Source: Cupriavidus metallidurans CH34
GTDB taxonomy: Bacteria; Pseudomonadota; Gammaproteobacteria; Burkholderiales; Burkholderiaceae
DNA length: 64,000 bases
Reading direction: 5' to 3'
Assembly: GCF_000196015.1 (NCBI RefSeq)
Contig: NC_007974.2
Location: 310,001-374,000 of the forward strand
Shown: piece by piece, positions 1,838 to 12,646 of the stretch
How positions within the stretch are numbered: the stretch's first letter is position 1
Layout: every line of letters begins with the position of its first letter
Notes under the pieces: generated by a model
The model's input: the letters and a program-made list of their open reading frames with translations, nothing else
The model's database searches: none
Told to the model about the DNA's origin: nothing
Made by a program: the position numbers and the translations under genes

Positions 1838-3091
1838 GTGAGCGAACAAGACAAGCCGCAAGTGACGGCAGGAATGCGAGGTGCCTCATGGGACGCCCGG
1901 CTGATGGATCGCCCCTATCAGATGGTGCCCTATGCATTGGGCACGGCCGATGGGCAGCGCACGCTCGGCTTTCTGTTCAGCCTCACTGGCAAGGAAAAGA
2001 CGGTTGTATCCCTGATGCACCCGCGCGAAATGGCCATCACCCACTATCTGGTGCCGTTCGTGCTCGATGCCGGATGTGCTTGCTGGGTGCAGGGCCCACG
2101 CTCGATCGGCAACGACCTGCGTCTGGAGCATGAGATCGCGCTGTTCGATGTCGCAGCCGGTATGACGCACCTGCGCGATCTTGGTTATGAAAAGATCGTG
2201 CTGCTCGGCAATTCGGGCGGCGCGGGGTTGTACACGTTCTACAACCAGCAGTCGTTGACGCCCCGTGAAATGCGTATTGCCCGGACGCCGGGTGGCCGCC
2301 CGACGAACCTGGGTGAACTGCATATGCCGGAAGTCGATGCGTTCATCCTTGTGTCGCCCCACCCGGGGCAGGGCAAACTCCTGATGAGCGGCATTGACCC
2401 GTCGGTCGCTGATGAAGACGATCCCATGCAGACGGACCCGAGGCTCGATCCGTTTTCAAAGGCCAACGGATTCGATGTGGAATCCGGCAAGGGCAGATAC
2501 GCGCCCGACTTCATCGAACGATATCGCGCTGCACAGACCGAACGCGTTGCACGCATCGACGCACGCGCCAGGGCAATGCTTCGGGCCAAGCAGGAGGCGC
2601 GGCAGAAAGTGAAGGCCGGCGCGGGCACCGATTCCGACCGTCGGCTCGCAGCCCATGCACCGATCTTCGAGGTCTGGCGTACCGACGCCGACCTGCGCTC
2701 ATGGGACATCTCGCTGGACCCGTCCGACCGCAAGACCGGTTCGCTCTGGGGCAAGGATCCCTTCGTGTCCAACTGGGGAAGTGTGGGTTTCGGACGTGTC
2801 GTCACGCCGGAATCCTGGCTCTCCACGTGGTCGGGGCTGTCATCCAACGCGGCGCTGGACAAGACGATCGGCACGTTGCATCAGCCCACGCTGCTGCTCG
2901 AATACACCGGCGATCAATGCACGTTTCCGGCGGATATCCAGGCCATCTACGATCAGATCCCGGCGGCGCATAAGCAGCACATTCGTGTGCGCGGCAACCA
3001 CCACGGCATGGCGTTGAGCCGCGAGGAGGAGCCCGGGCAGCGCATTGCAGGACGTCATATCGTCGAATGGCTGCGGGAATCGATGGCCTGA
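1838..3091 (+). CDS. Alpha/beta-hydrolase family protein
   Basis: A 417-residue soluble hydrolase with the nucleophile elbow GNSGG (Ser126) and a C-terminal His pair at 388-389 that could supply the catalytic His. There is no signal peptide, so it should act in the cytoplasm. The GTG start at 1838 is chosen because AAGGAGACA stands just in front of it. As first gene of the operon behind the TetR-type operator, it probably cleaves a C-C, ester or amide bond in a ring-cleavage or side-chain product of the pathway. A charged insert around residues 190-270 makes it longer than a minimal hydrolase. The substrate cannot be told from the sequence. Confidence 0.75.
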   Translation: MSEQDKPQVTAGMRGASWDARLMDRPYQMVPYALGTADGQRTLGFLFSLTGKEKTVVSLMHPREMAITHYLVPFVLDAGCACWVQGPRSIGNDLRLEHEIALFDVAAGMTHLRDLGYEKIVLLGNSGGAGLYTFYNQQSLTPREMRIARTPGGRPTNLGELHMPEVDAFILVSPHPGQGKLLMSGIDPSVADEDDPMQTDPRLDPFSKANGFDVESGKGRYAPDFIERYRAAQTERVARIDARARAMLRAKQEARQKVKAGAGTDSDRRLAAHAPIFEVWRTDADLRSWDISLDPSDRKTGSLWGKDPFVSNWGSVGFGRVVTPESWLSTWSGLSSNAALDKTIGTLHQPTLLLEYTGDQCTFPADIQAIYDQIPAAHKQHIRVRGNHHGMALSREEEPGQRIAGRHIVEWLRESMA

Positions 3092-3134
3092 GCGGCACCG
3101 CGGCCGAACTATATAACTACAGAGGTAGACAACG

Positions 3135-4838
3135 ATGCTGCAACCCACCCACGTACGCCCATCCGTGTTGCTCGATGGCGTGCGCTATCCCGATGAAGAC
3201 CGCCTTCGCCGTTATGTCGGCGACGGTTACCTGACCGGCGAAACGCTGGTTGGCGCCTTCCGTCAATCGTTCCGCGATCACCATGATCGGCTGGCCCTGG
3301 TGGGGCCGGAGGGCGAGTTTACCTATCAGGAGTTGGACGAACGGACTGACCGTCTTGGGGCGGCGCTGCTGGCGCTGGGTCTCAGGCCGCTCGACCGTGC
3401 GGTCTTTCAATGCGGCAACAGCAATGAACTGCTGTTCGCATTTCTCGGATGCCTGAAGGCCGGCATCATCCCGCTGTGTTCGCTACAGGCATTTCGCAAG
3501 CTGGAAGTGAGTTACCTGGGCAACTTGTGCGAGGCACGTCTGCATTTCGTTCAGGGAGATGACCCCAAGTTCGACGACGTGGCGTTTGCCGAGGAGATGC
3601 AGGCGGAAGTGCCGAGTCTCCAGTTCATCCTTCAGGCGCGCGGTGAGCGCCGCGGACGAGCCGTATTGCTGGCGGACTTGATCCGCGATATGCCGCTGGC
3701 GCGCGCCCAGGCGTTGTTGGCTGAAGTCGACCACGAGCCGTTCCAGGCGGCTGTGTTCCAGTTGTCGGGTGGCACCACCGGTGTGCCGAAAATCATCCCG
3801 CGTTTTCAGAACGAGTATCTGTACAACATGCGCGCAGTGGCTGCATGCAACGGATATACCGCTGAAGACGTGCTGTTCTTCCCGACGCCGTACATGCACA
3901 ACCTCAACATGGGCTGCTTCTTCGGCCCGTTTCTGTTGTGCGGCGCGAAGGTGACGGTAGCCCCGGATATCGGCGAGGAAACGCTGCAGTCTCTCGTTCG
4001 CAACTACGAACCGACCTGGTTCGGCGTTGCCGGGCCGATCCTTAGTCGCATCGCGCCGGAACTGCTGCGCGGCACCGCGTCGGACAAGGCGCGACGCAAC
4101 TTCATTGCCCCGAAGAACGCTGCCAACCTGACGCGCCTGACCGGATCGCCGACACATCATATTTTCGGCATGACCGAAGGCGTGATCATGTTCACGCGCC
4201 CGGAAGACCCTTCGGAGATTCGCGAGCAATCGATCGGTTATCCGGTATCCGATGCCGACGAAGTGCGCATCGTCCATCCCGGCACCGAAGACACCGTGGG
4301 CGATGGCGAGGTCGGCGAAGCACTGTTTCGGGGGCCGTACACCATCCGCGGCTATTACAAGTCCGAGAAGGAAGACGTTACGCGCTTCACTGCCGACGGC
4401 TTCTACCGCTCCGGTGACCTGATGTCCGCTCAAGTGGTCGACGGCAAGCGCTATTACTTCTTCCTCGGGCGGATCAAGGATGTCGTCGATCGCGGTGGCG
4501 AAAAGATCAACGCTGAAGAGCTCGAAAACGTCATCAACCAGCACCCGTCGATCCTGGCGTCAGCGGTCGTTGGCATGCCAGACAAGGTCTACGGCGAGCG
4601 TGTCTGCGCCTTTGTGCTACTCAAGCCGGCAGCGGCGTCGGGCCTGACACTTCCCGAACTTGCCCAATACCTGCAGGAGGTCGGCCTCGCCAAGTTCAAG
4701 TGGCCGGAGAGGCTCGAAGTCATCCCGGAATTTCCGCTGACGGCATCGGGCAAGCTCAGCAAGGTCCTGCTGCGTGACCGCATCGTCCAGATGCTGCGCA
4801 CCGAAGCGGAAAACGACACTGTCCACCAAGCAAAGTGA
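3135..4838 (+). CDS. Aryl-acid AMP/CoA ligase (DhbE/EntE-like)
   Basis: A 567-residue ANL-superfamily adenylating enzyme. The phosphate-binding loop SGGTTGVPK is at 211-219, the A8 block YRSGDL and hinge lie near 423-450, and the C-terminal Lys is in TASGKLSK near 538-545. The N-terminal third and the SGGTTG form (rather than TSGTTG) resemble the 2,3-dihydroxybenzoate/salicylate AMP ligase branch, so an aromatic carboxylic acid is the likely substrate. It would activate the acid with ATP and pass it to CoA. The neighbouring aryl-CoA hydroxylase-like flavoprotein and thioesterase support CoA-bound chemistry. No carrier-protein or siderophore gene is nearby, which argues against siderophore synthesis. 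Confidence 0.8.
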   Translation: MLQPTHVRPSVLLDGVRYPDEDRLRRYVGDGYLTGETLVGAFRQSFRDHHDRLALVGPEGEFTYQELDERTDRLGAALLALGLRPLDRAVFQCGNSNELLFAFLGCLKAGIIPLCSLQAFRKLEVSYLGNLCEARLHFVQGDDPKFDDVAFAEEMQAEVPSLQFILQARGERRGRAVLLADLIRDMPLARAQALLAEVDHEPFQAAVFQLSGGTTGVPKIIPRFQNEYLYNMRAVAACNGYTAEDVLFFPTPYMHNLNMGCFFGPFLLCGAKVTVAPDIGEETLQSLVRNYEPTWFGVAGPILSRIAPELLRGTASDKARRNFIAPKNAANLTRLTGSPTHHIFGMTEGVIMFTRPEDPSEIREQSIGYPVSDADEVRIVHPGTEDTVGDGEVGEALFRGPYTIRGYYKSEKEDVTRFTADGFYRSGDLMSAQVVDGKRYYFFLGRIKDVVDRGGEKINAEELENVINQHPSILASAVVGMPDKVYGERVCAFVLLKPAAASGLTLPELAQYLQEVGLAKFKWPERLEVIPEFPLTASGKLSKVLLRDRIVQMLRTEAENDTVHQAK

Positions 4839-4851
4839 AGAAGGAAGAGAC

Positions 4852-5730
4852 ATGAACCAATCCACGCAAGGCGCCCACGTCAACGTTCCCGTCGTTGCAC
4901 TGCACGGCGTACATCACACTGCGCGGCCCACCTGGAAACTTGCGGAAACGGTGCACTTCTACCGCGATCTGCTGGGCTTGCCGCTCGTGCATGCGATTTC
5001 GGCGAAAGGGTGGGGACCCGACAATCACGCGGACTTCCTGCATTTCTTCTTCGATAGCGGCAATGGCAGCACGATCGCCTTCTTCTACTACATCGGTACC
5101 GAGCGGCCCGACTGGCTGACCGTGCGCGAGCACTACCAGGACCGCGCCACGCACACCGCTTGGCGAGTGCGCGACGAAGCGGAGTTGTTGCAGTGGCGCC
5201 AGCGCGTGGAGGCGGTGGGCATTCCATTGCGCTACCAGATTCGCCACGAGGTCATTGAGTCGATCTATTTCAACGATCCGAACGGATACCCGATCGAGAT
5301 CACCTGGCAGGTGCGCCCGTTCAGCGACGCCGACAAGCAGGATGCCGCGTTTACGATCGATTCCGCCATCGAACTCGAACGCGCACGGGAGAAGGGTGCC
5401 GCCTTTGCATCGATCGAGCCGGTCTGGCAGCGCAAGGCGGAGCGTATCGAGCGCGCCGTGCCGAATGGCGAAAAGGCTTCGGTCTATGTACTCGATGTGC
5501 CCGAGTTTGCGCCGCTAATCGACGTGGCCCGTAAGACCGCTGGCTATCAGACCACTGCCATTGGCAATGGCTACGTGCGCATCGACGGCAATCCGACATT
5601 GCAGTTCCGGCGCAAGGAACTCGGCTTCAAGCCGGCGGTCTGGTACGGGGCGCTGACCGGCGGCCTGGCAGGCAGCATTCGACAATTTGACATGGATGCG
5701 CTCGTGGTGGCTCCGGGAGATACGCAATGA
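4852..5730 (+). CDS. VOC-fold (glyoxalase/extradiol dioxygenase-like) protein
   Basis: The start at 4852 is preceded by AAGGAAGAGA; an in-frame upstream extension lies inside the ligase gene and is not used. The 292-residue product begins with two VOC modules. His21 or His22, His101 and Glu149 (in PIEITW) form a plausible two-His-one-Glu metal site, as in type I extradiol dioxygenases and glyoxalases. The last ~110 residues are an extra domain I do not recognise. In this operon a ring-cleaving dioxygenase acting after hydroxylation is the most attractive role, but a lyase or isomerase role is possible. The next gene overlaps its stop codon (ATGA). Confidence 0.7.
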   Translation: MNQSTQGAHVNVPVVALHGVHHTARPTWKLAETVHFYRDLLGLPLVHAISAKGWGPDNHADFLHFFFDSGNGSTIAFFYYIGTERPDWLTVREHYQDRATHTAWRVRDEAELLQWRQRVEAVGIPLRYQIRHEVIESIYFNDPNGYPIEITWQVRPFSDADKQDAAFTIDSAIELERAREKGAAFASIEPVWQRKAERIERAVPNGEKASVYVLDVPEFAPLIDVARKTAGYQTTAIGNGYVRIDGNPTLQFRRKELGFKPAVWYGALTGGLAGSIRQFDMDALVVAPGDTQ

Positions 5731-6887
5731 AGGTGGCGATCATTGGCGGCGGACCGTCGGGGCTGTTCCTGTCGATCCTGCTCAAGGAGCGGATGGCGCA
5801 GGTCGACATCGATGTGTTCGAGCAGAACCCGGAGGATGCGACGTTTGGCTTCGGCGTTGTCCTGGCCGACACAGGCCTGTCGAATCTTCGGGCAGCTTCG
5901 CCGATCGTGGTGGACCGCCTGGCCAAGGCCATGCGGTTCAACGACCAGCATTCGATCGTCAGTCACGAGCATCCCATAGTCATGAGGAAGCCCGGTGCAG
6001 GTGGTGGTGCCATTCCCCGCATCAGTCTGCTGTCTGTACTGCAACAGCGCGCAAAAGAGCTTGGCGTACGGGTGACGTACAACAAGCGCATTGCCGATTT
6101 CGATGCGCTCGATGCCGACCTCGTCGTCGGGGCGGACGGCATCGGCTCGCAATTGCGTACCGCCAATGAAGCGGCCTTTGGCACGACGCGCCGCACACTG
6201 ACGAATCACTTCGCCTGGTTCGGCGTGGCAAAGCCCTTTGCGAGTCCGGCTCTGGTGTTTCGCAAGTACGAGGGCGGCTACTTTGTGGCCCATTACTACC
6301 CGTACTCCGATTCGATGAGCACATTCGTGGCCGAGTGCGACCACCAGACCTGGGTCGACTTCGGCATGGAAGACATGAGCGCCGAAGCGCGGCAAGCGCT
6401 CTTCGAGACGGTGTTTGCCCCGGAGCTGACTGGCCACGGATTGGTTTCGAACAATTCGATCTGGCGACAGTTCCCGGTGATCCTCAATGCCAACTGGCAT
6501 GTCGGCAAGCAGGTCCTGATTGGCGATGCACTGACCAGTGCGCATTTCTCGATCGGATCTGGCACCCGGATTGCGATGGAGGATGCCATGGCGTTGGCGG
6601 ACGCCATCGTGACGCACCCGGACGATGTACCGGCTGCGCTGGAGCAGTACGAAGCCGTGCGCAAACCGGAGAAGGCCAAGCTGATCAGCGCTTCAGAGGC
6701 GTCGTATAACTGGTACGAGCGCATTCGGGAATGGATGGATCTTCCCACGCCGCACGAGTTCGTGTTTCGCTTTATGACGCGTACCGGCCGTATTGACGCG
6801 GAACGTCTGCGGGCTCAGTTTCCGGCGTTGATGGCCGAGCTGGCTGCCGGCGGGGTGGCAGCCGTGGCGGCAGAAGGGCAATCATGA
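5727..6887 (+). CDS. FAD-dependent monooxygenase, salicylyl-CoA 5-hydroxylase-like
   Basis: A 386-residue class A flavoprotein. The dinucleotide motif GGGPSG starts at residue 8, a DG motif (VGADGIGS) lies near 136, and the second FAD motif GDALTSAHFSIGSG lies near 270. The form of the N-terminus, the 'FGFGVVLAD' stretch and the length match the branch that hydroxylates CoA-bound aromatics (salicylyl-CoA 5-hydroxylase SdgC, anthraniloyl-CoA monooxygenase N-domain) rather than free-acid hydroxylases. It would use NAD(P)H and O2 to hydroxylate the ring of the CoA ester made by the upstream ligase. It is translationally coupled on both sides (ATGA overlaps). The exact substrate is inferred. Confidence 0.75.
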   Translation: MKVAIIGGGPSGLFLSILLKERMAQVDIDVFEQNPEDATFGFGVVLADTGLSNLRAASPIVVDRLAKAMRFNDQHSIVSHEHPIVMRKPGAGGGAIPRISLLSVLQQRAKELGVRVTYNKRIADFDALDADLVVGADGIGSQLRTANEAAFGTTRRTLTNHFAWFGVAKPFASPALVFRKYEGGYFVAHYYPYSDSMSTFVAECDHQTWVDFGMEDMSAEARQALFETVFAPELTGHGLVSNNSIWRQFPVILNANWHVGKQVLIGDALTSAHFSIGSGTRIAMEDAMALADAIVTHPDDVPAALEQYEAVRKPEKAKLISASEASYNWYERIREWMDLPTPHEFVFRFMTRTGRIDAERLRAQFPALMAELAAGGVAAVAAEGQS

Positions 6888-7333
6888 TGCGCGCCACGGA
6901 GTACGTGCTGAGCGAAAGTCCGTTCGTGGTCAGGCGTACCGTGCGTTGGGGAGATTGCGACCCGGCAGGCGTCGTCTACACAGGCCGGTTCACCGACTAT
7001 CTGCTTGGAGCGGTCGGTCTCTACACCGCGCACATGGCGGGCGGCGACGGCCGGCTGGGAGAGGTCCACGGCGTCGGTACCCCATGCAAGGCCATGCGTT
7101 TCGAATTCATCGGCACGCTTTGGCCGGATGACGTGATCGATATCACGTGCGCGGTCGAAGCCATTCGGACCAGATCGTTCGATATTCGCTGCGTGGCCCG
7201 CCGACCTGACGGCGCCCCGGTCTTCGACGCCATGTTCTCGCCGATCTGCGTGCGGCTGGACCGGCGCGAGGGGACGCCAATTCCCGACTCGCTGCGCGCG
7301 GTGCTGAACCGCTTCCTGTCGCCAGCGCTCTGA
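6884..7333 (+). CDS. 4-Hydroxybenzoyl-CoA thioesterase-family protein
   Basis: A 149-residue hotdog protein with the 4HBT class I signature RWGDCDPAGVVYTGRF (residues 21-36). Asp26 corresponds to the catalytic Asp17 of the Pseudomonas CBS3 enzyme. It overlaps the flavoprotein stop by four bases, so the two are translated together. It should release the hydroxylated aromatic acid from CoA, as gentisyl-CoA thioesterases do in salicylyl-CoA pathways. A start at the second Met (6887) is equally possible. Confidence 0.8.
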   Translation: MMRATEYVLSESPFVVRRTVRWGDCDPAGVVYTGRFTDYLLGAVGLYTAHMAGGDGRLGEVHGVGTPCKAMRFEFIGTLWPDDVIDITCAVEAIRTRSFDIRCVARRPDGAPVFDAMFSPICVRLDRREGTPIPDSLRAVLNRFLSPAL

Positions 7334-7353
7334 ATCGTTTCTTGGAAATATCA

Positions 7354-8112
7354 ATGTCGACGTACCGAATCGGGCAAATCGTGCCCAGCTCCAACATCAC
7401 GATGGAGCGCGAAGTCCCCGCCATCTTCAATGCCCGCATGCAGGTGCTCCCCGAGCAATTCAGTTTCCACGCGAGCCGCGTGCGCATGCATCGCGTGGTG
7501 GCCGAGGAACTGGAGAGGATGAACCGGGACATGGGCCGCTGCGCGCTGGAACTGGCCGACGCCCGTGTGGATGTCATGAGCACGGCGTGCCTGGTGGCCA
7601 CCATGTGCATGGGTAACGGTTATCACCGTCAGGTCATCGAGGAGCTCGGTGCCGCTATCGGGGACGCGCCGTATCGCCCGCAGATCATGACATCGGCCGG
7701 CGCGCTGGTGGAGGAACTGAAGGACTTCGGCGCCCGACGCATTTCATTGATGGCCCCGTACAGCGATGCCCTGACGAAAACCGTCGTCGAGTACATCGAG
7801 CACGAAGGCATCGAAGTGAAGGATGTCATCAACTTCTCGATCCTCGACAACCTTGAGGTTGGAGAGCGGGACCCGCTGCGACTGCTCGAAGACGTGAAGC
7901 GGTTGGACACCAAGGGTGTGGACACCGTGGTCCTGTCCGCCTGCGTGCAGATGCCGTCGTTGGCGGCGCTCGAGCCCGCCCAGCAAGCGCTTGGCATTCC
8001 GGTGACGTCGACGGCGGCCTGCACCGTGCGGCAGATGCTGCGCAGGCTCGGCCTGGAAGCCAAGGCGCCGGGCGCAGGCGCTTATCTGGGCAGCCAGACC
8101 GGACTGCGCTGA
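7354..8112 (+). CDS. Maleate isomerase (Asp/Glu racemase superfamily)
   Basis: A 252-residue protein opening with RIGQIVPSSN and TMEREVP, the signature of maleate cis-trans isomerases. The two catalytic Cys are Cys79 (STACLVA) and Cys197 (LSACVQMPS). It converts maleate to fumarate, linking aromatic or N-heterocyclic ring cleavage to the TCA cycle. The ATG at 7354 is used rather than the in-frame TTG at 7342, because GGAAA lies at a suitable distance. Its presence next to the aryl-CoA module says that the pathway probably ends in maleate, as in gentisate (hydrolytic branch) or 2,5-dihydroxypyridine breakdown. An arylmalonate-decarboxylase-like role is a less likely alternative. Confidence 0.82.
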   Translation: MSTYRIGQIVPSSNITMEREVPAIFNARMQVLPEQFSFHASRVRMHRVVAEELERMNRDMGRCALELADARVDVMSTACLVATMCMGNGYHRQVIEELGAAIGDAPYRPQIMTSAGALVEELKDFGARRISLMAPYSDALTKTVVEYIEHEGIEVKDVINFSILDNLEVGERDPLRLLEDVKRLDTKGVDTVVLSACVQMPSLAALEPAQQALGIPVTSTAACTVRQMLRRLGLEAKAPGAGAYLGSQTGLR

Positions 8113-8177: not shown

Positions 8178-9425
8178 ATGCATGACGCCCCCCAAGTATT
8201 GCCCCGTGCCGCCGGCTGGATTTACGTCAGCGTGATCCTCGGCGCGGCCCTCGGGATGCTGGCCGGATACGCCCCTTTGTTCAACGCCACGGCTGGCGTC
8301 TTCGTCAGGCCGCTGGCCGCTGAGTTCGGTTGGGGACGCTCGCAGGCGTCCCTGTCGTATGCGGCGTCGATGTTCGGGCTGGCCGTTGTCAGTCCCATCG
8401 TTGGCGCAATGATGGACCGTTTCGGTATTCGTCGGGTGATCGTGTGTTCGGCGATCGTCTTTGGCCTGGCCACTGCCGCGATGTCACTGCAAAACGGCAG
8501 CATGTTGATGTGGGTGGCGCTTTCGGTTGTTGTCGGCGTGTCCGGCGCGGCGACCTCGGTGCTGGGCTACCTTGCAGTGCTGCCCCAGTGGTTCGATCGT
8601 CGTCTGGGCCTCGCGCTGGGCATTGCGATGTGCGGCCTCGGGGCTGGCACCGTCATCCTGCCGATCACGGCGCAGTTTCTGGTCACGACATTTGGCTGGC
8701 GTATGGCCTACGTAGGTCTGGGCGTTGGCTCGGTCGTGCTTTCGTTGGTGGCCTGCGGGCTGTTGCGGGAGCGGTTCTCCGGCAGCCGTGGGGCAAAGCA
8801 TGTGCCGCAAGGTGTAGCGCTGGCAGCGGCGATGCGTAGCTACCGGCTCTGGGCGATCTGGCTGGTGTTCGTATTGAGTTCTGCGGCCACCTTGTCGCTA
8901 GGGCCGCATCTCCCATCGCTGTTCGCGGATCGCGGTTTCGATGCGGCCATGGCAGCGCGGAGTGCCTCGATGGTCGGCGTTGGGCTTCTCGTCGGGCGTC
9001 TGCTCACCGGGCTACTGATCGACAAAATCCATGCGCCACTGGTGGCAAGCGTCTTCTTCATCGGGGGCGCGGTCGGGGTATTCCTGCTGCGTGGGACTCA
9101 CGACTACGCCGCGTTGCTGGTGGCGACCACGCTCATTGGCCTGACTATCGGGGCGGAGGGCGACCTGATTTCCTACCTGGTCCGGTCATACTTCGGTCTG
9201 ACCTCGTTTGGCTCGCTGTTTGGCATTGCCTTTTCTGGCTACGGCTTGGGTGCAGTCATCGGTCCGATCGGGCTGGGCGCCTGGTTCGATCGGCATGGCA
9301 GCTACGATGTGCCGTTGCTGGTCCTGCCCTGGATGCTGCTGGCAGCCGCCGCGCTGGTTCTGTCTCTCGGACGCTACAGAGCCGGCGCGGAAGGGAAGGA
9401 CGCAACGGCGGTGGCGTCTGCCTAG
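8178..9425 (+). CDS. MFS transporter (monocarboxylate/oxalate-formate type)
   Basis: A 415-residue membrane protein with about twelve hydrophobic helices. The loop motif DRFGIRRV follows helix 2, and there is a cytoplasmic centre around residue 200. The family moves mono- or dicarboxylates by proton symport or exchange. It lies 65 bases after the maleate isomerase and just before the TetR gene, so import of the aromatic acid is the obvious guess. A GGAGACC site lies just before the ATG at 8178. Confidence 0.8.
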   Translation: MHDAPQVLPRAAGWIYVSVILGAALGMLAGYAPLFNATAGVFVRPLAAEFGWGRSQASLSYAASMFGLAVVSPIVGAMMDRFGIRRVIVCSAIVFGLATAAMSLQNGSMLMWVALSVVVGVSGAATSVLGYLAVLPQWFDRRLGLALGIAMCGLGAGTVILPITAQFLVTTFGWRMAYVGLGVGSVVLSLVACGLLRERFSGSRGAKHVPQGVALAAAMRSYRLWAIWLVFVLSSAATLSLGPHLPSLFADRGFDAAMAARSASMVGVGLLVGRLLTGLLIDKIHAPLVASVFFIGGAVGVFLLRGTHDYAALLVATTLIGLTIGAEGDLISYLVRSYFGLTSFGSLFGIAFSGYGLGAVIGPIGLGAWFDRHGSYDVPLLVLPWMLLAAAALVLSLGRYRAGAEGKDATAVASA

Positions 9426-9510
9426 GTGGACGCGAAGGATGGCGTGTGGGGCGATCGGGGATAGAATTGGCATACCACCAATTTCCAGTCGGTCTGATCG
9501 TCCAACGCCC

Positions 9511-10317
9511 ATGCCTGCCGCCCGTAAGTCGCCCGCTGCCAAGGTTGCCGCACAGCCCTCGCCCAATCCGGTGCCGCGCCGACGCGGCCGACCACCGAAA
9601 ACGGAGTCCCCGATCGGCGCCGAGCCCATGCTCAGCCGCACGACGATCCTGCAGCATGCGATCAAGCTGACAAAGACCTTGCCGCTGGACCAGATCTCGA
9701 TGGTCCAGCTTGCCAAGGACTTTGGCGTGGCGCCGGGGCTGATCCACTATTACCTTGGTGGTCGCGATCAACTGGTGTCAGGTGTACTGAACGATTACTA
9801 TCGCCAGCGCACCCTGCGGATCCCGCCACTGACGGGCGACTGGCGCGCGGACGTGGAGCGCATCGCTCGGCTCAGCTTCCAGGTGGCGGTGGAAAATCCC
9901 GGCGTCAGCAACTATGTGGCGTCGCATAACCGGTACCGGCTGTTTCAGGATGTGCAGCCGGGCGAAACCGACTATGGCCTGGAGTTCTTCAACCGGATGA
10001 CTTCGGCGATCATGCAGGGCGGTTTTTCCGCTGAGCAAGTCGCCTTGGGTTATCACTTGCTGGCGCAGTACCTCGTCGCGGCAAGCATGGCGGAAGCCTC
10101 GCGCCAACTGCCCGCCTATCACCAGGCATTTATTCAGAACAAGCTGGATTCGGTATCGGCCGAGCAGTATCCCGGTGCACGCTTTGTCAGCCGATCGTTC
10201 TCACAACTGTCCTCCGATACCGCCTTTGAAGAAGGACTTCGCATTACGCTCGATGGCATCGCTGCCTGGCAGCGCGACGTAAAACCTGCGAAGAAAAGAA
10301 GCGCGCGTTCCGCGTAA
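9511..10317 (+). CDS. TetR-family regulator of the aryl-acid locus
   Basis: The ATG at 9511 gives 268 residues; longer in-frame starts lie within the transporter gene. A basic, Pro-rich tail of about 35 residues (with PRRRGRPPK) precedes the helix-turn-helix at roughly 40-95, whose recognition helix lies around VAPGLIHYYLGGRDQL. The ligand domain follows. It sits between the two groups of genes whose upstream regions share the TTATTTGA-N7-TCAAATAA palindrome, so it is the natural candidate for binding that operator. Release by a pathway acid or CoA ester is a guess. Confidence 0.85.
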   Translation: MPAARKSPAAKVAAQPSPNPVPRRRGRPPKTESPIGAEPMLSRTTILQHAIKLTKTLPLDQISMVQLAKDFGVAPGLIHYYLGGRDQLVSGVLNDYYRQRTLRIPPLTGDWRADVERIARLSFQVAVENPGVSNYVASHNRYRLFQDVQPGETDYGLEFFNRMTSAIMQGGFSAEQVALGYHLLAQYLVAASMAEASRQLPAYHQAFIQNKLDSVSAEQYPGARFVSRSFSQLSSDTAFEEGLRITLDGIAAWQRDVKPAKKRSARSA

Positions 10318-10472: not shown

Positions 10473-11429
10473 ATGAAACGCCCCTTCCTCGCGCTGACGC
10501 TGCTCGCCTTGGCCCTGCCGGCCGTTGCCAGCACGTATCCAGACAAGATGGTCCGGATCCTCGTGCCATCGATTGCGGGCAGCGCGCCGGATATCATCGC
10601 CCGGCAGGTTGCCGAACGCCTGACCAGCGCCTGGAAGCAGCAGGTGATCGTGGAGAACAAGCCTGGCGGTAACGGCATCGTCGCGATGAGCGCGCTCAAG
10701 CAGGCGCCGGCCGACGGGTACACGCTTGTGCTGTTTCACGCAGCGGCGGCTGTCACGACGCCCGTCATGTACAAGGAAGCAAAATTCGATATCCAGCGCG
10801 ACACTGAAGTGGCTGCGACGCTGGCGTACACGCCGATGATGTTCGTGGCCGGTCCCGCGACACCCTACAAGAGTCTTGGCGATGTCATCAAGGATGCCAA
10901 GGCACGTCCTGACGACGTAGTAATCGGGAGTCCGACCCGTGGCTCCGTTCCCCATCTCACGGCGGAGATGATGGGGCAGTTGCAAAAGACAAAGTTTCGG
11001 CAGGTGAGTTTCAGCGGCACGACTCAAGCCATCCAGGCCGTGGTGAAGGGCGACATCCCGGTCTATGTCGATGGCATCGCGCCGCTCGTGCCCCTGGTGC
11101 GTGGCGGTCGCCTGAAGGCGCTTGCCGTGACTTCGGATGTGAACCTGCCGGGCATGGAGGGTATTCCGCTGGCCAAGGACATCGCGCCTGGTCTTGTCGC
11201 CAAGGGCTGGTTCACGATCTTCGCGCCCAAGGGGACGCCAGTGCCAGTGCTGGATCGCGTCAACGCCGCCGTCAACCAGTCGTTGACGCAGCAGCCGTTT
11301 GTCGATCGGCTCAAGGATCTGGGCACGTATCCAATGCCGATGTCGCGGCCAGAAGGCGCAAGATTTATCGAGGCCGAGAAGCTCCGTTGGGAGAAGGTGA
11401 TTTCGGACGCCGGCGTGAAGCCGGAATGA
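10473..11429 (+). CDS. Bug/TctC-type periplasmic substrate-binding protein
   Basis: A 318-residue protein with a cleavable signal peptide (about 20 residues, ending AVAS) followed by TYPDKMVRILVP, the standard Bug N-terminus. PADGYTLVL lies near residue 83. Bug proteins bind carboxylates, amino acids or aromatic acids in the periplasm, sometimes serving tripartite tricarboxylate transporters and sometimes only sensing. A GTGGAGACAAC site precedes the ATG. The operator pair in front puts it under the same control as the catabolic operon at 1838, so it probably binds the pathway substrate. No TctA/TctB gene is nearby. Confidence 0.88.
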   Translation: MKRPFLALTLLALALPAVASTYPDKMVRILVPSIAGSAPDIIARQVAERLTSAWKQQVIVENKPGGNGIVAMSALKQAPADGYTLVLFHAAAAVTTPVMYKEAKFDIQRDTEVAATLAYTPMMFVAGPATPYKSLGDVIKDAKARPDDVVIGSPTRGSVPHLTAEMMGQLQKTKFRQVSFSGTTQAIQAVVKGDIPVYVDGIAPLVPLVRGGRLKALAVTSDVNLPGMEGIPLAKDIAPGLVAKGWFTIFAPKGTPVPVLDRVNAAVNQSLTQQPFVDRLKDLGTYPMPMSRPEGARFIEAEKLRWEKVISDAGVKPE

Positions 11430-11464: not shown

Positions 11465-12646
11465 ATGCGTGATCTTTTTTCCCGGGCAGGGGCCGGCCCG
11501 GTCAATGGCTTCCGCCTGCTTTGTGCGGGGGCATGCGCGGCGCTCGCCGTCCTGGCTTCAACTTCTCATGCCGATTCGATCGGACAGCCGCACAGTACCT
11601 CGGCGGAGCAGTCCGGCGCCAACCTCGTACTGCTGGGAACGGCCGGCGGCCGGACTTCCTGGCGAGGTTCGCAGTCTGCGGGAATCGCCTCCGCGGTAGT
11701 GGTCAATGGTCAGGTCTACCTTGTCGATTTCGGCGCGGGCTGGCTGCGACGCTACTTCCAGGCGGGCTTGGGCGCGCCGCCACCAGGACAGGGCCTCGAA
11801 ACACTACGAGCGGCATTTATCACGCACTTGCACGCAGACCACATCGTGGACTATCCGTCGCTCGTCCTGTTTGGCGCGTCGGACGGCTTGGCCGAGCGGC
11901 GTCAGAAACTCAAGGTGATCGGGCCCGGCTCACGCGGAAAACTCCCGCCCGCGAGCGGCGGCAACGACGGGGTGGCGGACGTCGTGGCGCCCGAGCAGCC
12001 GATGCCTGGCACCGTTGCCATGACCGAAGCGCTGTACCGTGCGTTCGCCGCGGACATCAACGACAACATTCTGGATAGCCGCAAGCCGAATCCCCATAGC
12101 CGCGTCGACGTGATGGATATCACGCTGCCTGCAGGCCTTGACGTTGATCCCGATCGCGATCCCGCGCCGCCGATGGCTCCGTTCGAGATCTACCGTGACG
12201 AGAACGTCAGGGTGACGGCAACACTGGTGAACCATGCCCCGGTCTATCCGGCATTCGCGTTTCGGTTCGACACCTCGACTGGGTCTGTTGTCTTCTCAGG
12301 CGATACCAGCCCGGACCGGAATCTGATTCGGTTGGCGCAAGGTGCCGATGTGCTGGTGCATGAGGTGATCGACACCGCCTGGGTGGATTCCCTGTTCCCG
12401 AAGCCCCGGAGCGCGGCACAGGAAGCCAAGGCGCACCATCTTGTTCATGCGCATACCGCCGCATCGGATGTCGGAGCCGTCGCCGAAGCGGCTCACGTCA
12501 AGACCCTCGTCCTGTCGCATCTGGCCCCCGCCGACAGTGATCCCCACCGATGGGCAGCAGCCAGCCAAGGCTTTTCGGGGAAGGTGATCGTTGGTCGCGA
12601 TCTCCTGTGGATTCCTCTTGTTCCCGCTGCGCCGGAATCGAAATAG
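11465..12646 (+). CDS. Exported metallo-beta-lactamase-fold hydrolase
   Basis: A 393-residue protein with an N-terminal export signal (hydrophobic stretch about residues 18-33, cleavage near SHA-DS). The MBL zinc motif HLHADH is near residue 120, with further ligand candidates at VNHAP, the GDTSPD aspartate and LSHLAP. This layout is that of the RNase Z/arylsulfatase-like branch. It lies 35 bases downstream of the Bug gene, so the two are probably co-transcribed. A periplasmic lactonase, esterase or sulfatase that frees the substrate before uptake is plausible; the substrate is unknown. Confidence 0.78.
   Translation: MRDLFSRAGAGPVNGFRLLCAGACAALAVLASTSHADSIGQPHSTSAEQSGANLVLLGTAGGRTSWRGSQSAGIASAVVVNGQVYLVDFGAGWLRRYFQAGLGAPPPGQGLETLRAAFITHLHADHIVDYPSLVLFGASDGLAERRQKLKVIGPGSRGKLPPASGGNDGVADVVAPEQPMPGTVAMTEALYRAFAADINDNILDSRKPNPHSRVDVMDITLPAGLDVDPDRDPAPPMAPFEIYRDENVRVTATLVNHAPVYPAFAFRFDTSTGSVVFSGDTSPDRNLIRLAQGADVLVHEVIDTAWVDSLFPKPRSAAQEAKAHHLVHAHTAASDVGAVAEAAHVKTLVLSHLAPADSDPHRWAAASQGFSGKVIVGRDLLWIPLVPAAPESK

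Follow-up and report, generated by a model that had tools for sequence, protein, structure and literature searches.

A candidate CoA-dependent salicylate operon with a putative VOC-effector ring-cleaving protein in Cupriavidus metallidurans CH34

The window analysed here is a stretch of 64,000 nucleotides from Cupriavidus metallidurans CH34 (contig NC_007974.2, positions 310,001 to 374,000), which near its start holds genes for an alpha/beta hydrolase (ABH), an aryl-acid ligase (LIG), a VOC protein, an FAD monooxygenase (FMO), a 4HBT thioesterase (HBT) and a maleate cis-trans isomerase (ISO) (Table 1). Because the six genes lie on one strand with short gaps (13 bases between LIG and VOC) and 4-base overlaps (VOC/FMO and FMO/HBT), they appear to be tightly coupled. 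An earlier note, made from the sequence alone, had described a coupled six-gene operon at positions 1838-8112, and its positions, plus strand and family calls were all confirmed. It overlooked, however, a second, MmoB/DmpM-like domain in the VOC protein and the breadth of the module, which is widespread and no one-off. Our reading, held with a fair degree of confidence, is that the operon encodes every step of a CoA-gentisate route that needs no glutathione and serves salicylate or a closely related ortho-hydroxy aryl acid.

Table 1. Features of the operon and of the genes that follow it, in window positions
Feature	Positions	Strand	Details
Alpha/beta hydrolase ABH	1838..3091	+	417 aa; GTG start behind gaaggag; proposed maleylpyruvate hydrolase (C-C bond)
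Aryl-acid ligase LIG	3135..4838	+	567 aa; PF00501/PF13193; salicylate-AMP/DHB-AMP ligase branch
VOC protein, proposed ring-cleaving dioxygenase	4852..5730	+	292 aa; PF00903 E 1.9e-12; VOC module + C-terminal effector-like domain
MmoB/DmpM-like effector domain	5470..5727	+	VOC residues about 207-292
FAD monooxygenase FMO	5727..6887	+	386 aa; PF01494, NF006101; salicylyl-CoA 5-hydroxylase family
4HBT thioesterase HBT	6884..7333	+	149 aa; PF13279 E 8.2e-17; proposed gentisyl-CoA thioesterase
Maleate cis-trans isomerase ISO	7342..8112	+	256 aa; TTG start, or ATG at 7354
MFS transporter, proposed aromatic-acid uptake	8178..9425	+	PF07690
Open frame containing TetR-type regulator	9208..10317	+	PF02909; true start downstream
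TctC-type substrate receptor, possible accessory uptake	10473..11429	+	PF03401 E 7.5e-50

The two-His-one-Glu metal site that the earlier note had proposed for the VOC protein is assigned by position to H22, H101 and E149, which are invariant in all 46 aligned proteins (L054, in which a stop codon splits the gene, was omitted from alignment A2). The best PDB sequence match is 9u42 from Acinetobacter (E 2.2e-14; profile 1.6e-21; about 25% identity), which is also the first Foldseek row (E 9.8e-11), and its His/His/Glu residues align with the three ligands. This entry is titled homogentisate 1,2-dioxygenase and is 182 aa long, the match spanning the VOC module only; homogentisate, like gentisate, is a para-dihydroxy acid, with one additional methylene. 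The VIA-align list is headed by methylmalonyl-CoA epimerases and extradiol dioxygenases, while in the viral fold library the two matches at E <=0.001 are both VOC/glyoxalase proteins (TM <0.31). The metal site has the pattern expected of a type I (VOC) ring-cleaving dioxygenase, which the protein is predicted to be.

A scan with the VOC protein over one genome per species (84,980 species) returned 188 loci, 80 of which were kept and all used in the locus counts. The C-terminal residues of the window's protein are remotely homologous to MmoB/DmpM effectors in both fold and profile. This domain is kept in all 89 loci examined for it (the 80 VOC-bait loci, 4 plasmid loci and 5 fetched for a short VOC match, a set that excludes the VOC relatives matched at about half to two-thirds coverage), either fused to the VOC module or adjoining it, and in 16 loci it forms a separate frame. 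Fused and split forms number 72 and 8 in the 80 loci, 1 and 3 in the plasmid loci and 0 and 5 in the short-match loci, although their ratio over the 89 loci is not that of a sample, five of the split loci having been fetched for their short VOC match. The conserved residues of the domain are E218, F219, R254, P261, W264 and G271. When a profile of true effectors (30 rows, all kept, 21 of them reused in a later step) was run over the loci (4,265 open frames), VOC proteins topped the list at a best E of 0.074, which supports the effector reading by rank only. The effectors of diiron monooxygenases bind to the hydroxylase and modulate how substrate and oxygen gain access, and to our knowledge MmoB/DmpM-type effectors have so far been known from these enzymes only. 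By analogy, the simplest guess is that the domain acts as a lid, probably closing over or gating the VOC active site.

The nearest PDB relative of LIG is the salicylate-AMP ligase 5wm2 (E 2.2e-91). Its pocket reads HNL-NMGC, with Cys at the selectivity position, as in its close kin; this position is likewise Cys in the salicylate-activating 5wm2 and PchD, and Ser in the dihydroxybenzoate entries 6e8o and 1md9. The entry 5kei also bears Cys although it is labelled a dihydroxybenzoate ligase, and we take it to be an MbtA-type salicylate ligase. Because the Cys of LIG matches that of salicylate-activating ligases, the pocket favours salicylate as the likely substrate of the window's enzyme. The pocket Asn, which presumably binds the 2-hydroxyl of the substrate, is kept in all the ligase rows listed except cehG. 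LIG is only 23-24% identical to two cehG proteins and falls outside the CehG-type (benzoate-CoA ligase) family.

FMO matches NF006101 over the N-terminal half of the model (317 bits, E 1.7e-94), under its full-length cut-off, and is a predicted member of the salicylyl-CoA hydroxylase family. An FMO tree was built from 31 of the 80 loci, hand-picked from two groups (14 + 17), with the window, 4 VOC-type plasmid loci, 6 ceh-type plasmid loci (described below) and a homologue from the window's own genome. In it the six ceh-type proteins form a single clade (support 100/99), which the window's clade of 21 VOC-type proteins adjoins with weaker support (89/78). HBT is a 4HBT_2 member with PDB matches to 2oaf and to the 4-hydroxybenzoyl-CoA thioesterase 1bvq, and shares just 25% identity with cehI across 84 residues. 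The own-genome hydroxylase homologue is a protein of 791 aa on contig C3 (within L121:2285-9620), which exceeds the cut-off of NF006101, a model named bifunctional salicylyl-CoA 5-hydroxylase/oxidoreductase, and to the N-terminal half of which FMO is homologous. Its cluster holds benzoate-CoA-ligase-type, acyl-CoA dehydrogenase and enoyl-CoA hydratase genes and looks more like an aminobenzoyl-CoA-type route, so that the family name may mislead annotators.

The lower part of the operon is less conventional. ABH has no match in Pfam or NCBIfam, and nothing significant was found in a PDB sequence search. ISO is closest in the PDB to the maleate isomerase 4fq7 (E 7e-70) and is Amdase/EutA-like in the family libraries; the two catalytic Cys motifs of maleate isomerases are kept in 44 of 45 and in 45 of 45 relatives. 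As the earlier note had stated, no gentisate dioxygenase or fumarylpyruvate enzyme is among the Pfam/NCBIfam family calls of the operon. The same holds for cupin gentisate dioxygenases in the genome as a whole (6.9 Mb, 4 contigs, estimated 100% complete), where a search with TIGR02272 at E 0.001 gave no match and no salicylate 1-monooxygenase over the cut-off was found; as a positive control, a like genome search recovered the cupin HmgA.

A CoA-mediated salicylate pathway is known from Streptomyces sp. WA46 and, reportedly, from Rhizobium sp. X9, where Zhou et al. in 2021 are said to have assigned it to cehGHI. Six ceh-type plasmid clusters with an FMO relative were hand-picked from 40 listed of 178 plasmid records. 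Agrobacterium pAt1 carries cehI-cehH-cehG with FAH, maiA and cupin genes; in Rhizobium AB2/73 and Agrobacterium vitis a gene of the maleylpyruvate-isomerase type accompanies the cupin, FAH and maiA genes, Variovorax boronicumulans has gtdA and FAH, and Sulfitobacter has FAH and maiA within the fetched stretch. The Salipiger cluster has FAH and a VOC gene that gave no blastp match with the window's, and its cupin is short (the whole gene is 462 bases), the available part giving no match to the gentisate dioxygenase model. FAH is thus found in all six clusters and a full-length cupin in four. For these four cupins gentisate 1,2-dioxygenase is the top NCBIfam model (E from 3.6e-78 to 1.6e-138, with one of them exceeding the cut-off); TIGR02272, the model used on the window's genome, recovers the ceh-type cupins with E values no worse than 3.6e-78. 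Because these clusters have FAH and, in four of the six, cupin genes in the place of the lower pathway, VOC, ABH and ISO would appear to fill that slot in the window. Judged from gene content, two lower pathways go with similar upper steps, one made up of a cupin dioxygenase, an isomerase and FAH and the other of VOC, ABH and a maleate isomerase, which supports the variant combination of CoA-tethered hydroxylation, VOC ring-cleaver and maleate isomerase put forward in the earlier note.

Genes were counted in the 80 loci by tblastn (E 1e-8), with a match anywhere in the locus accepted and ligase matches below 33% identity dropped. Relatives of ABH and LIG are present in all 80 loci and of FMO in 79 (the 80th locus stops within LIG), while those of HBT are found in 58 and those of ISO in 49. 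This core recurs in Burkholderiales, Pseudomonas and alphaproteobacteria, and ABH, LIG, VOC and FMO are also grouped on a Rhodococcus plasmid, so that the grouping is unlikely to be due to chance. Two arrangements can be distinguished. That of the window is ABH-LIG-VOC-FMO-HBT-ISO; the other is ABH-VOC-LIG-(HBT)-FMO-(ISO), or a permutation of it, with a LIG about 35-41% identical, and often has an aromatic-acid transporter near PcaK/TIGR00895 (cluster c15, 9 loci, below the model cut-offs) or alternatively parts of a branched-chain-type ABC transporter. Remoter forms of the module are found on plasmids of Tistrella, Pseudosulfitobacter, Variovorax and Rhodococcus. VOC and FMO of the window are 100% identical to those of a record labelled C. 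metallidurans FDAARGOS_675 (NZ_CP046333.1, L084), and other close relatives (C. pauculus, Cupriavidus sp.) stand at 92-96%.

From these data we infer the substrate, the order of the reactions, the reactions of VOC and ABH and the role of the effector. LIG would convert salicylate, ATP and CoA to salicylyl-CoA, which FMO would hydroxylate para to the hydroxyl group with NAD(P)H and O2, yielding gentisyl-CoA, and HBT would hydrolyse the latter to gentisate. The VOC-effector protein, acting as a mononuclear-metal dioxygenase, would then cleave gentisate with O2 to maleylpyruvate, from which ABH would release maleate and pyruvate by hydrolysis and ISO would form fumarate. Each of these reactions has a precedent in other enzymes: a CoA route and gentisate cleavage are described in excerpts of PMC4600096, PMC13215587 and PMC11335346, and direct hydrolysis of maleylpyruvate to maleate (HbzF) and maleate isomerization in an excerpt of PMC5658364. 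The more specific proposal, that VOC and its MmoB/DmpM-type effector form a two-component dioxygenase cleaving gentisate or gentisyl-CoA and together with ABH and the maleate isomerase constitute a widespread substitute for the cupin route, is held with belief and doubt in equal parts.

Several observations weigh against the CoA-gentisate reading of the operon. VOC and cupin genes had been expected to be complementary, and this expectation was rejected by a survey that covered 299 genomes from the host's family (counts made by hand), in which the two co-occur: a cupin gentisate dioxygenase over the cut-off is found in 36 of the 46 genomes with the VOC gene versus 66 of the 253 without it, and the addition of strong sub-cut-off matches (E <1e-70) raises the former to 39, the other seven having a weak match (two) or none (five). 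Such co-occurrence favours the alternative that VOC is not the ring-cleaver, that a gentisate dioxygenase encoded elsewhere cleaves the gentisate released by HBT and that VOC and ABH act otherwise. This alternative is nevertheless judged very unlikely, given that neither the window's genome nor four others of the 46 have any cupin match and that an ABH relative accompanies VOC in 80 of 80 loci. HBT is missing from 22 of the 80 loci and ISO from 31, a few clusters being truncated by contig ends. Where ISO is missing, maleate may be handled elsewhere; where HBT is missing, ring opening may take place while the CoA is still attached, with VOC cleaving gentisyl-CoA, ABH then hydrolysing the thioester and/or the C-C bond and HBT serving only as a safety valve. 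This is judged unlikely, however, in view of the presence of HBT in the window and in 58 loci and of the nearest VOC relative being named for a free acid, homogentisate; moreover a thioesterase may act in trans, and one ceh-type cluster (L123) is likewise without one in the fetched stretch.

Further points against the proposed route concern the individual proteins. In the FMO tree, 15 of the 36 VOC-type cluster proteins fall outside the window's clade. Foldseek superposes 9u42 and VOC poorly (TM 0.24/0.38, rmsd 18.7) and 9u42 was not found among the 50 VIA-align rows, the weight of this relationship being carried by sequence. PF02406, the Pfam model of the effectors, has no match in the window's VOC protein or in the stand-alone effector of Tistrella, and only a weak one in that of Rhodococcus (E 0.012, 16.2 bits against a gathering cut-off of 25); a weak match in another genome (L116) was set aside, that locus having no matches to the operon genes. 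It is conceivable, though doubtful, that the C-terminal domain is a structural or dimerization relic of an effector that has no part in the regulation of catalysis. The domain keeps conserved residues of its own and no diiron monooxygenase hydroxylase is among the Pfam/NCBIfam family calls of the operon, as a relic would allow, but a mere relic would be unlikely to persist in all 89 loci and to form a frame of its own beside VOC in 16 of them. The substrate may also vary between ligase families, because ligases of the second family have a different pocket, retaining the Asn but mostly with Tyr at the selectivity position (mostly HNA-xxxY). Together with the placement of LIG among siderophore-type aryl-acid ligases, a branch that includes 3-hydroxypicolinate ligases, this leaves some room for a different aryl acid with an ortho hydroxyl, for instance 3-hydroxypicolinate or a salicylate bearing substituents. 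The pyridine carboxylate or substituted salicylate suggested in the earlier note is not needed, however, since plain salicylate would use all six enzymes; the LIG pocket has the salicylate-type Cys, and a pyridine would require a step releasing the ring nitrogen, for which no amidase is among the family calls of the operon. Another substrate is considered distinctly unlikely for the window. An anthranilate (2-aminobenzoyl-CoA) pathway would be in keeping with the homology of FMO to the 791-aa protein, but that protein sits in its own separate cluster and no family call of the operon would remove the amino group, making this pathway highly improbable.

If the CoA-gentisate route holds, the operon resembles the ceh pathway in its ligase, salicylyl-CoA hydroxylase-family flavoprotein, putative 4HBT thioesterase and expected intermediates, and differs from it in drawing LIG from another ligase family and in having VOC-effector, ABH and maleate isomerase rather than cupin gentisate dioxygenase, maleylpyruvate isomerase and FAH. 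The structure 9u42 is matched by the VOC module of the window's protein alone. Relative to the MmoB/DmpM effectors (T4moD, DmpM, MMOB; PF02406), the domain is below the Pfam cut-off and is paired with a VOC protein instead of a diiron hydroxylase. The HbzF route of Pseudomonas alcaligenes shares the course from gentisate through maleylpyruvate to maleate and pyruvate by direct hydrolysis; HbzF, however, is an FAH-type protein, whereas an alpha/beta hydrolase followed by a maleate isomerase is proposed here. The maleate isomerase of Pseudomonas putida S16 (4fq7), the closest solved relative of ISO and alike in its Cys motifs, is linked to nicotine breakdown, whereas ISO is linked to aryl-CoA genes. 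The operon is thus regarded as a new variant of the CoA-salicylate pathway, and its ring-cleaver architecture is apparently undescribed in the open PubMed Central literature, where the titles and abstracts of the papers matched in searches gave no description of the operon or of the VOC-effector pairing (subscription papers were outside this scope). Salicylate acts as a hormone in plant defence and is a central compound in the breakdown of aromatics. If the VOC-based route is real, some genomes may have been misread as unable to use salicylate, or as able to do so by another route; in an excerpt of PMC4250580, AromaDeg treats gentisate dioxygenases as cupin enzymes. An effector outside the diiron monooxygenases would, if confirmed, permit a direct test, in a far simpler enzyme, of how such proteins gate the chemistry of oxygen, since VOC and effector occur naturally both fused and as separate proteins.

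Additional observations concern the VOC and effector genes elsewhere. On the Rhodococcus qingshengii plasmid (L088:3420-12113) VOC and effector are separate genes, and cytochrome P450, 2Fe-2S and flavodoxin genes lie near FMO, LIG and ABH. Further VOC matches among those listed are on Mycobacterium avium and Tsukamurella plasmids. Cupriavidus sp. LEh25 carries the operon in two copies on two contigs (L009, L010), and another genome (G243) combines two full-length VOC matches with one split copy. A large family of proteins of about 81-89 aa (954 at E 0.01), of which 120 are listed (P0121-P0240) as having no precomputed Pfam domains, apparently comprises unannotated effector subunits.

Of the genes that follow the operon, the MFS transporter has a match in 22 of the 80 loci, the TctC-type receptor relatives in 31, some of them placed between ABH and LIG, and the TetR-type regulator relatives in 42, in several of which the gene is divergent and adjoins ABH. 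Past the operon, at window positions 11465-12646, lies a metallo-beta-lactamase-fold hydrolase with a relative in just 7 of the 80 loci. Among ten open frames scanned between 15059 and 54000 there are two AMP-binding ligases, two family III CoA-transferases and three TctC-type receptors.

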